From NCBI RefSeq assembly GCF_016892765.1, contig NZ_JAFEMD010000025.1:1-64000 (forward strand): DNA of 64,000 nt, in the 5' to 3' direction. The translations under genes and the position numbers were made by a program. A model generated the notes under the pieces. That model was not told where the DNA came from. It was given only the letters and a program-made list of their open reading frames with translations, and did not search any database. The DNA comes from Microvirga arvi (GTDB taxonomy: Bacteria; Pseudomonadota; Alphaproteobacteria; Rhizobiales; Beijerinckiaceae). Positions 20,990 through 23,154 of this stretch are shown here, piece after piece. The stretch's first letter is position 1; the number at the start of each line of letters is the position of its first letter.

Positions 20990-21613
20990 ATGGCAAAGCT
21001 CCACTTCATCTACTCGGTGATGAATGCAGGCAAGACGACCCATCTCCTGCAAGTTCGCTACAATTACATCGAGAACGGCGGCCACGTGCTGCTGTTCACC
21101 AGCCTGATCGATGACCGCTTCGGCGTCGGCAAGGTGAAGTCACGCATCGGCCTTGAGGCCGATGCGATCCCCTTGAGGAAGAGTGACGACATCGGCGCCA
21201 TGGTGGCGGCCGAGCATGCGAAGACGCCGGTCACGGTGGTGCTGGTCGATGAAGTCCAGTTCATGACTGCCGACCAAGTCCGTCAGCTCGCCTGGATCGT
21301 CGACGAGCTGAACGTGCCCGTCATGGCCTATGGGCTGAAGAACAACGTCTACGGCACGCTGTTCAGCGATGCCATCATCGCGATGATGGCGCTGGCGCAG
21401 GATTTCCAGGAGATCAAGCAGCTCTGCCATTGCGGCCGCAAGGCCACGATGATCCTGAAATACGACCGCAACGGCGAGGCCGTCCGTTCCGGCCCGGTCG
21501 TCGAAATTGGCGGCGAAGGCCGCTACGTCTCCGTCTGCCGTCCGCACTGGACCGCCGGCGATATCGGCCCCGCCGCACGGCAGCTGCTCGCCCAGCCGGT
21601 AGCGGCGGAGTAG
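20990..21613 (+). CDS. tdk: Thymidine kinase
   Basis: Type II (TK1-like) thymidine kinase, 207 aa, phosphorylating thymidine in the salvage pathway. The P-loop is SVMNAGKTTHL at residues about 9-19, then the DDRFGVGKVKSRIGL region of the E. coli-like subgroup, the catalytic Glu in VLVDEVQFMT, and the lasso-loop zinc site (CHCGRK and a C-x2-H further on). The start lies 9 bp after lpdA; any functional link with lpdA is not evident. Confidence 0.96.
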   Translation: MAKLHFIYSVMNAGKTTHLLQVRYNYIENGGHVLLFTSLIDDRFGVGKVKSRIGLEADAIPLRKSDDIGAMVAAEHAKTPVTVVLVDEVQFMTADQVRQLAWIVDELNVPVMAYGLKNNVYGTLFSDAIIAMMALAQDFQEIKQLCHCGRKATMILKYDRNGEAVRSGPVVEIGGEGRYVSVCRPHWTAGDIGPAARQLLAQPVAAE

Positions 21614-21709
21614 AGGCTCTCACGCTTCAATCACTGGTTCTGTCGTGCCGCATTCGTGCTTCAGAATGTGCTTGAGGGTTGCATTTTGAGGCGTTTGAGA
21701 AAATTCCTC

Positions 21710-21738
21710 TTGTCACTCGGACGGGACTCCACCTAGCG
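21710..21738 (+). promoter_or_regulatory. Candidate promoter of the GG-leader peptide gene
   Basis: TTGTCA at 21710-21715 and CTAGCG at 21733-21738 are 17 bp apart, about 33 bp before the start codon. The -35 matches the sigma70 consensus at 5 of 6 positions; the -10 is weak. Confidence 0.35.
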
Positions 21739-21770
21739 TGACGATGCAATAAAGTTGCTAAAGGTGCGTT

Positions 21771-22013
21771 ATGTCGAAACTTTATCCTCTCACGGATCGG
21801 GAATTGGAACTCGTTGCCGGAGGCCAGAGCCGAATCCCTATCGTCGGCCCGCTAATCGATTGGATCACCGGCGGAAGCAGGTGCAGCTACCCGGGCGGCG
21901 GGGGGATTCCAACCGGACCGAATCCACCGAACCATCGCCAGTTTCCCGCCCCGGCGGCGCCCGCTCCGGGACCTGGCCGCGGCATCCCGCGCAGCGTGCG
22001 GCCCATCGACTAA
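21771..22013 (+). CDS. Small secreted peptide with double-glycine leader
   Basis: An 80-aa peptide whose first 18 residues, MSKLYPLTDRELELVAGG, match the double-glycine leader consensus of peptides exported and cleaved by peptidase-containing ABC transporters: Leu at -12, Glu at -8, Leu at -7, Val at -4, Gly-Gly at -2/-1. Cleavage would release a 62-aa product with one Cys, an N-terminal hydrophobic part (IPIVGPLIDWITGG) and a Gly/Pro-rich tail. AAGGTG sits 4 nt before the ATG. The gene stands alone between tdk and convergent xerC, with no maturation enzyme, immunity gene or transporter in the window. Function unknown: bacteriocin-like, signalling or modified peptide are all possible. Confidence 0.72.
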   Translation: MSKLYPLTDRELELVAGGQSRIPIVGPLIDWITGGSRCSYPGGGGIPTGPNPPNHRQFPAPAAPAPGPGRGIPRSVRPID

Positions 22014-22111
22014 AAGCATTGTCGGCAGAGTGGATGCCGGTTCGCTGCCAAGAATGCGGCAGAGCAAAGAAGAGGTCCGGTTCCGCGCGATAGAGCGATT
22101 CCCGGTGCAGC

Positions 22112-23098
22112 TCAGGCTGTGCCGGGCCTGCGCGCCCGCGGATGTGCCGCATTGAACGCATCCATCAATCGTGCCGCATCGACCTTCGTGTAGAGCTGTG
22201 TGGTCGAGAGCGAGGCGTGGCCTAAAAGCTCTTGAATGCCGCGCAGGTCGCCTCCCCTGGCGAGAAGATGCGTCGCGAAGGAATGGCGCAGGGCGTGAGG
22301 TGTGGCGCTGTCGGGCAGGCCCAGCGCACCACGCAGCTCCTCGACCGCCAGCTGGATGATGCGTGGCGAGAGCGGGCCGCCGCGCGCGCCGACGAAAAGC
22401 GGCCCCTCAGGCGGGATCGCGTAAGGGCAGAGCTCCAGATACTCCTCCACCGCCCGCTGGATCGCCGGGATCACCGGCACGCTGCGCATCTTGCCGCCCT
22501 TGCCGGTGACCGTGACCATGTCGATCCCATGAACCGGCGCATCGCGCCGCTGCAGTCCAAGGGCTTCGGAAATGCGCAGGCCCGCCCCATAGAGCAACGA
22601 CAGCACGGCGGCATCCCGTGCCAGGATCCAGGGCTTTCGATTCTCGGAAGCCCGAGTCTCCACATCCGTGACGGCGACGGCCGAGGAGGCGGAGAGGGGG
22701 CGCGGCAGGTTCTTGTCCACCTTCGGGGTGCGAATCGCCGCGAAGGCCGAGGCGGTGCCAAAGCCCTCCCGCTCCAGATGGCGCGCGAAGGAGCGCAGGG
22801 CGGCGAGCTGGCGCATGAGCGAGCGGCTTCCCACCGAATCCATGCGCCGGGCGGCGAGGAAGGCACGGATGTCCAGGGGCTTCAGGGCCAGGATACTCTT
22901 GACGCTCGGCGGCTCACCGAGATGGTTCGTCAGAAAAGCCAGGAACTGGCGCAGGTCCCGGGCATAGGCCTCGACGGTCTTGGCCGACAGCCGCCGCTCC
23001 TTGGCGAGCGAGGCGAGCCAGACAAACGCCTCCCGGCGGGTGTCGTCCGCGCCGGGCAGGACAAGATCGAGGGCATTTTGCGTGGCGCTGCTTGACAT
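22112..23098 (-). CDS. xerC: Tyrosine recombinase XerC
   Basis: Chromosome-dimer resolution recombinase acting at dif with XerD and FtsK, 328 aa from ATG 23098 (ATG 23107 is equally open). The N-terminal SAM-like core-binding domain spans about residues 15-105. The catalytic residues are Arg in GAGLRISEALGL, Lys in GKGGKMRSVP, His-x-x-Arg in HALRHSFATHLL, His in LGHASLSTTQ and the Tyr nucleophile in LYTKVD. XerC is favoured over XerD by length and its place next to priA. It is divergent from priA with about 56 bp between them. Confidence 0.88.
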   Translation of the reverse strand: MSSSATQNALDLVLPGADDTRREAFVWLASLAKERRLSAKTVEAYARDLRQFLAFLTNHLGEPPSVKSILALKPLDIRAFLAARRMDSVGSRSLMRQLAALRSFARHLEREGFGTASAFAAIRTPKVDKNLPRPLSASSAVAVTDVETRASENRKPWILARDAAVLSLLYGAGLRISEALGLQRRDAPVHGIDMVTVTGKGGKMRSVPVIPAIQRAVEEYLELCPYAIPPEGPLFVGARGGPLSPRIIQLAVEELRGALGLPDSATPHALRHSFATHLLARGGDLRGIQELLGHASLSTTQLYTKVDAARLMDAFNAAHPRARRPGTA

Positions 23099-23154
23099 GA
23101 GTCCCATTTATGCAAGGGCAGAACCATAACAGTCACAGGTTAACCTCTTATCCA

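Follow-up and report, generated by a model that had tools for sequence, protein, structure and literature searches.

A conserved double-glycine-leader peptide gene in Microvirga lies apart from the only C39-peptidase transporter found in its genome

The window, the whole stretch of 64,000 nucleotides of Microvirga arvi DNA that was analysed, contains at 21771..22013 on the + strand a gene with an ATG start for an 80-aa peptide precursor carrying a double-glycine leader, with orthologues at the same locus in two other Microvirga genomes. The gene is preceded by the thymidine kinase gene tdk (20990..21613, + strand; Pfam TK, 3.1e-39; NCBIfam NF003300 over its cut-off) and followed by a convergent gene for a xerC-like tyrosine recombinase (22112..23107, - strand; Pfam Phage_integrase, 1.1e-32), whose 309 bits against TIGR02224 XerC are below the cut-off of 335. 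Both neighbours are considered to be outside the system, and no further gene was apparent in the gap between them. The good start site claimed by the first-pass annotation is supported by a Shine-Dalgarno-like AAAGG (21760..21764, + strand) that is read from the sequence six bases before the ATG. Regarding the candidate promoter proposed by the same annotation, the region fails a strict sigma-70 consensus scan, but a conserved promoter-like block composed of TTGTCA, 17 nt and xTAxCGT (21710..21739, + strand) is kept with equal spacing in three species. Within this block, located 32-61 bases upstream of the ATG, 19 of the 30 columns are identical in the three species, compared to 7 of 30 in the preceding bin; since one of the relatives, G166, has almost no sequence further upstream, the bins beyond that give no fair contrast.

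The consensus of double-glycine leaders consists of L at -12, E at -8, L at -7, V or I at -4 and GG or GA at -2/-1. The 18-residue leader of the window peptide (21771..21824, + strand; residues 1-18, MSKLYPLTDRELELVAGG) satisfies every consensus position, with Leu -12, Glu -8, Leu -7, Val -4 and Gly-Gly, as had been read at first sight. The predicted exported peptide (21825..22010, + strand), which begins QSRIPIVG, is 62 aa long, with a computed mass of 6.3 kDa, a pI of about 11 and one Cys. It is organised as a hydrophobic head corresponding to its first 15 residues (residues 19-33, mean hydropathy +0.57), a Gly-rich hinge that carries the single, invariant Cys, and a Pro/Gly-rich basic tail; Gly plus Pro account for 47% of the product beyond the head. 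This computed composition agrees with the earlier description of a 62-aa product with one Cys, a hydrophobic N-terminal patch and a Gly/Pro-rich tail. The AlphaFold model of the peptide, in which residues 9-15 and 25-32 form short helices, is poor (mean pLDDT 54). The strict motif L...EL..[VI].GG, following a start codon in a short open reading frame (ORF), occurs once in the window, in the ORF at 21771-22013, and was found neither in 100 first-order Markov windows nor in one second-order simulated genome of 6.46 Mb. An intermediate leader motif yielded no match beyond the window ORF and its two orthologues in seven stretches of real DNA without a transporter, whereas a much looser motif is uninformative because about 11 matches per window are expected by chance.

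Orthologues of the window peptide are present in G153 (80% identical) and G166 (53% identical), where they are also located between thymidine kinase and a xerC-like gene. Conservation of the frame in relatives, on which the first-pass annotation had made the gene depend, is observed: start and leader are kept in both, and the window peptide and its G153 orthologue agree in length and stop. In G153, the predicted product begins KSSIPIIG. The G166 orthologue, of 84 aa, retains the head as well, and its tail is strongly diverged, still Pro-rich. Leader residues M1, K3, L4, L7, T8, D9, E11, L12, L14, G17 and G18 are invariant in the three orthologues, and the head of the window-type peptides follows the pattern x-S-x-IPI[IV]GPLIDWI. 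The dN/dS ratio between the window peptide gene and that of G153 is 0.187 in frame, whereas frames +1 and +2 give 1.21 and 2.89. By region, the leader has a ratio of 0.28, the tail one of 0.18, and residues 19-44, the best conserved part of the peptide in this comparison, one of 0.13. Over residues 1-44, values of 0.24 and 0.11 were obtained for G166 against the window and against G153, respectively. Taken together, these results show that the window ORF is a real gene, which two relatives have conserved and on which purifying selection acts.

The tdk-xerC gap (21614-22111 in the window; L073-L111 in relatives) ranges across the genus from about 10 to more than 1000 bases, as measured between tblastn match ends. 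Other ORFs occur in some of these gaps, such as a 284-aa ORF in L098 that is glycosyltransferase-like by eye; this listing took in 28 of 39 gaps. In the gap of the three carrying species, no immunity-like membrane ORF common to all three was found among the ORFs of at least 30 aa, in a scan that ended at tdk and xerC on either side. The highest 19-residue hydropathy was 1.75, for a 34-aa ORF found in G153 only, and all other gap ORFs reached at most 1.46.

The first-pass annotation had predicted that the export machine, if the peptide is real, is encoded elsewhere in the genome, and a C39-peptidase ABC transporter with its adaptor is indeed encoded there on another contig. A single Pfam Peptidase_C39 match was obtained in this genome (G000) at a threshold of E <= 0.001 (E 8e-35). 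The protein concerned is 723 aa long and combines a C39, an ABC membrane and an ABC ATPase domain; its gene is on contig C145, as is that of an HlyD-family adaptor, which overlaps the transporter gene by 4 bases. The window peptide gene is on contig C147, the assembly being a 229-contig draft. Residues 18-697 of the transporter align to PCAT1 (4ry2, E 1.3e-100), and its Cys26, His99 and Asp115, which we take to be the catalytic residues, stand opposite a Cys, a His and an Asp of PCAT1. An NHLP-type RiPP export system was rejected, as the transporter scores 529.7 bits against a cut-off of 853 for NHLM_micro_ABC1, though this is its best NCBIfam match. Three ORFs located between the adaptor gene and aspS have no Pfam match. 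Within the genus, a C39 match is found in 38 of the 48 genomes. These matches lie at 49 places, and the 38 places with E <= ~1e-32 were examined as 39 stretches, that of G152 being split over two contigs; the 11 weaker ones were left out. Six loci (L114, L115, L119, L173, L174 and L177) belong to another lineage of C39 transporters, which share 48-49% identity with that of G000; these loci show no rnd or aspS match alongside, and two of the six (L119 and L174) contain a double-glycine ORF.

Three of the 48 genus genomes, that of the window included, carry the window peptide gene (G000, E 1.4e-29; G153, 4.3e-21; G166, 1.4e-15). Although 17 of the 48 were matched at E <= 1, three of these matches are real (E <= 1.4e-15) and the remainder are at 0.017 or worse. 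The end of the thymidine kinase gene was located in 43 of the 48 genomes. Among the 40 non-carrying tdk places, 39 were examined (G179, near a contig end, was left out): a xerC-like gene follows thymidine kinase at 34 of them, and none has a peptide match at E <= 0.1. In G190 and G152 the sequence stops at a contig edge by tdk, so that absence at the locus is not certain there, and the whole-genome search found no window-type peptide in either genome. The carriers do not form one group in the tree of the rnd protein, where G166 pairs with G190 (97/91) and where G153 and G000 fall within a group of ten (93/89). In the transporter tree, the partner of G000 is G153 (89/82) and that of G166 is once more G190 (100/99), the G166-G190 pairing being the only one well supported across both trees. 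Loss in multiple lineages, or transfer, would explain this scatter of the carriers.

Beyond the genus, a single-sequence query of the family sample matched 4 of 149 genomes at E <= 0.01, namely its own and three at 0.002-0.008. With an alignment query, 21 of 397 genomes were matched at the same threshold, three of them being the carriers (E <= 6.3e-36). The best E values of the other 18 range from 2.1e-4 to 9.2e-3; of the 19 matches that these genomes contain, 13 start at residue 22 or later and 6 at residues 9-14, and 9 cross stop codons. These 18 genomes, judged collectively rather than singly, were taken as Gly/Pro compositional matches. In a collection of 85k genomes, no match was obtained with the single sequence and one with the three-row alignment, in Microvirga arsenatis, which we take as G153. 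The plasmid collection yielded no match to the window peptide.

The window gene had been described as solitary, and it is alone at its locus; a genome-wide look for peptides with the same leader, as had been suggested, revealed two more small double-glycine ORFs, which adjoin the G000 transporter gene on the opposite strand (L002:3915-4016 and L002:4140-4289; contig C145). The first is 27 or 33 aa long, depending on the choice of start, with the hexapeptide RRIILY as predicted product, and the second is 45 or 49 aa long, with a predicted product that begins RRIIMH. It should be noted that the 27-aa form (L002:3933-4013) matches TIGR04497, a putative ATP-grasp target RiPP, below threshold, with 21.8 bits where 32 are required. 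Products of the RR[IV]I type are predicted from double-glycine ORFs in 15 of the 39 transporter stretches, and in two cases 3-4 residues precede the motif. Ten other, larger double-glycine ORFs were found at the rnd locus, across nine loci, eight of them by motif scan and two (L207 and L209) by a profile search of 15 genomes; a 51-aa double-glycine ORF in L178 was set aside by eye as a probable chance match. Five of the ten (L122, L126, L127, L131 and L175) combine a short hydrophobic head with a tail rich in Gly or Pro, and this architecture is absent from the other five (L120, two in L124, L207 and L209); the sorting was done by eye, composition having been computed for four of the head-and-tail peptides and for that of G149 described below.

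Double-glycine peptides encoded away from the transporter were found in 3 of the 15 other genomes examined (G149, G171 and G188). In G149, the peptide gene is on contig C233 and the transporter gene on C144, and the predicted product, like that of the window gene, starts with QSRI and is Gly-rich in its tail. The unlinked peptide of G171 (C93, transporter on C104) and that of G188, encoded on the same contig as the transporter about 14 kb off, are of the RKVNEYEGQHR type. Other genomes besides G000 thus have solitary tagged peptides, as far as draft genomes can be read. This second small type, ending RKVNEYEGQH(R), occurs in four Microvirga genomes (L122:8343-8504, L127:8704-8859, L203 and L204): two have it near the transporter, one has it on a different contig, and one has it at a distance of about 14 kb.

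In G000, a profile built on 12 leaders picked up three ORFs, the two linked to the transporter and that of the window, with E values from 6e-7 to 7e-6 and the next match at 0.6; the window leader reached E 7.8e-7 with its own family included. With the same profile, G153 and G166 each gave two strong places. These values are partly circular, since these leaders and related ones went into the profile. When the three window-type leaders were left out, the window leader was at E 0.97, compared to 0.71 for the best noise in the genome, and the orthologous leaders of G153 and G166 were absent from the matches at E <= 10. The window leader being at noise level, its link to the transporter rests on the single C39 match and on the general leader rules. 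We consider it likely, with a probability of about 0.7, that the window gene encodes a secreted peptide that is an unlinked cargo of the C39 pump on the other contig. The head-and-tail build of five of the ten larger linked peptides and the unlinked double-glycine peptides of three other genomes speak for this reading. Besides the noise-level leader score, the rarity of the gene (3 of 48 genomes, when 38 have a C39 match), the different build of the other five linked peptides, the poor fold model and the draft state of the genome speak against it. We infer the handling of the window peptide by the C39 transporter, its export, an outer channel and all that concerns its function.

According to the proposed mechanism, the C39 transporter and its HlyD-family adaptor would cut the leader and export the window peptide. 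Outside the cell, the hydrophobic head probably engages a membrane or a receptor, and the Gly/Pro tail probably forms a flexible extension. The purpose would be a narrow-range action on related bacteria, like that of a class II microcin. Such an antibacterial, microcin-like role is our leading guess and is put forward tentatively; it loses weight because no immunity-like gene was found in the gap. The main alternative, which we consider slightly less probable, is that the exported peptide is not antibacterial but a signal or a surface or biofilm factor. The absence from the gap of an immunity-like membrane ORF common to the three species speaks in its favour, as do the low dN/dS of head and tail against G153 (0.13 and 0.18), given that a toxin in an arms race might change faster, and the precedent of the EbfG proteins of Synechococcus elongatus (described in part in PMC4997328). 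Against it, so patchy an occurrence (3 of 48 genomes) is seen more often in competition factors than in core signals, the G166 peptide has a strongly diverged tail, and a passage of PMC10233263 reports bacteriocins of Bacteroides that have a double-glycine site but no immunity protein, so that a missing immunity gene is not decisive. A third reading considers the gene as a leftover, a cargo gene formerly linked to the transporter that moved to the tdk-xerC gap, is no longer exported and is kept by chance. The variable length and content of the gap across the genus and the failure to find the gene in 45 of the 48 genomes are compatible with it, but an open frame kept at the same place in three species, together with the low dN/dS against G153 and the conserved upstream block, make it improbable. 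Finally, a chance ORF or another coding frame with a coincidental leader, as might be suspected of an ORF that is short, lies in GC-rich DNA and is overlapped by others on either strand, is contradicted by the frame-specific dN/dS (0.19 against 1.21 and 2.89) and by the 0 strict motifs in simulated sequence, and has hardly any probability left.

Searches for bacteriocins and peptide signals usually look beside transporter genes. Here, a conserved tagged peptide is encoded well away from the single suitable pump that the genome search revealed. If, as we favour, this pump exports the window peptide, whole-genome leader searches would yield more cargo than neighbourhood searches, and Microvirga would gain a tractable secreted-peptide system. 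One can further imagine a split system, in which a conserved rnd-aspS locus would provide the C39 transporter, the adaptor and a six-residue secreted signal of the RRII[LV]Y type, effectors with a head and a Gly/Pro tail would share the pump, some of them, including the window gene, being relocated, and the whole would constitute an alphaproteobacterial peptide signalling; this picture is speculative and, taken as a whole, unlikely to be correct.

Regarding known systems, the first impression that no known bacteriocin family is recognisable in the peptide stands, as no family reached its cut-off in Pfam or NCBIfam. Pfam gave no match to the window peptide and NCBIfam two, both sub-threshold and neither from a microcin family. 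NF038034 (lactococcin G beta / enterocin 1071B) weakly matches residues 7-34 of the three orthologues (E 0.031, 0.0063 and 0.011); it was rejected, since the scores of 14.5, 16.7 and 16.0 bits compare with a cut-off of 37 and the match includes the leader. PHROGs gave one weak match (E 0.06), to a family without assigned function. In the open-access literature, no paper combining double-glycine leader, Alphaproteobacteria and C39 peptidase was found, nor any combining class II microcins with Alphaproteobacteria. Among the papers listed by other searches, those looked at for Microvirga do not mention it, one listing contains no double-glycine paper and the titles of another concern other subjects.

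The Cdz system of Caulobacter crescentus, according to passages of PMC5380434, consists of the glycine-zipper peptides CdzC and CdzD, which carry extended GxxxGxxxG zippers and leave the cell by type I secretion, encoded in a gene cluster with the immunity gene cdzI. Compared by description, the window product resembles CdzC and CdzD in being a small alphaproteobacterial peptide with a presumed leader, but it has neither the extended GxxxGxxxG zipper nor such a cluster; GxxxG occurs twice in the window and G153 peptides and once in that of G166. The EbfG proteins of Synechococcus elongatus are described in parts of PMC4997328 as double-glycine proteins of 6-7 kDa after cleavage, encoded by four adjacent genes, that act in biofilm formation and need a C39 transporter for efficient secretion. 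The window product, with its 6.3 kDa, a C39 transporter encoded in its genome and no recognised domains, is similar to EbfG/PteB when compared by description, whereas the window gene is solitary at its locus.

Class II microcins, as presented in passages of PMC10233263, rely on TolC and on four components encoded close together, namely the precursor, its immunity protein, a C39 transporter and an adaptor, and their precursors have a double-glycine leader of 15-18 residues and a core of 60-90 aa. As in the microcin V type (CvaC with CvaB/CvaA/TolC), the window precursor has a leader of 18 residues and a core of 62 aa, and a C39-peptidase ABC transporter with an adaptor is encoded in its genome. 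Unlike in class II microcins, the precursor gene lies apart from the transporter gene and has no adjacent immunity-like gene, and the antibacterial role is a guess. With its precursor gene elsewhere and no immunity-like ORF in the gap, the peptide is therefore not filed as a class II microcin, and it may work like one. We regard the window peptide as a new family, of narrow distribution, within a known kind of peptide.
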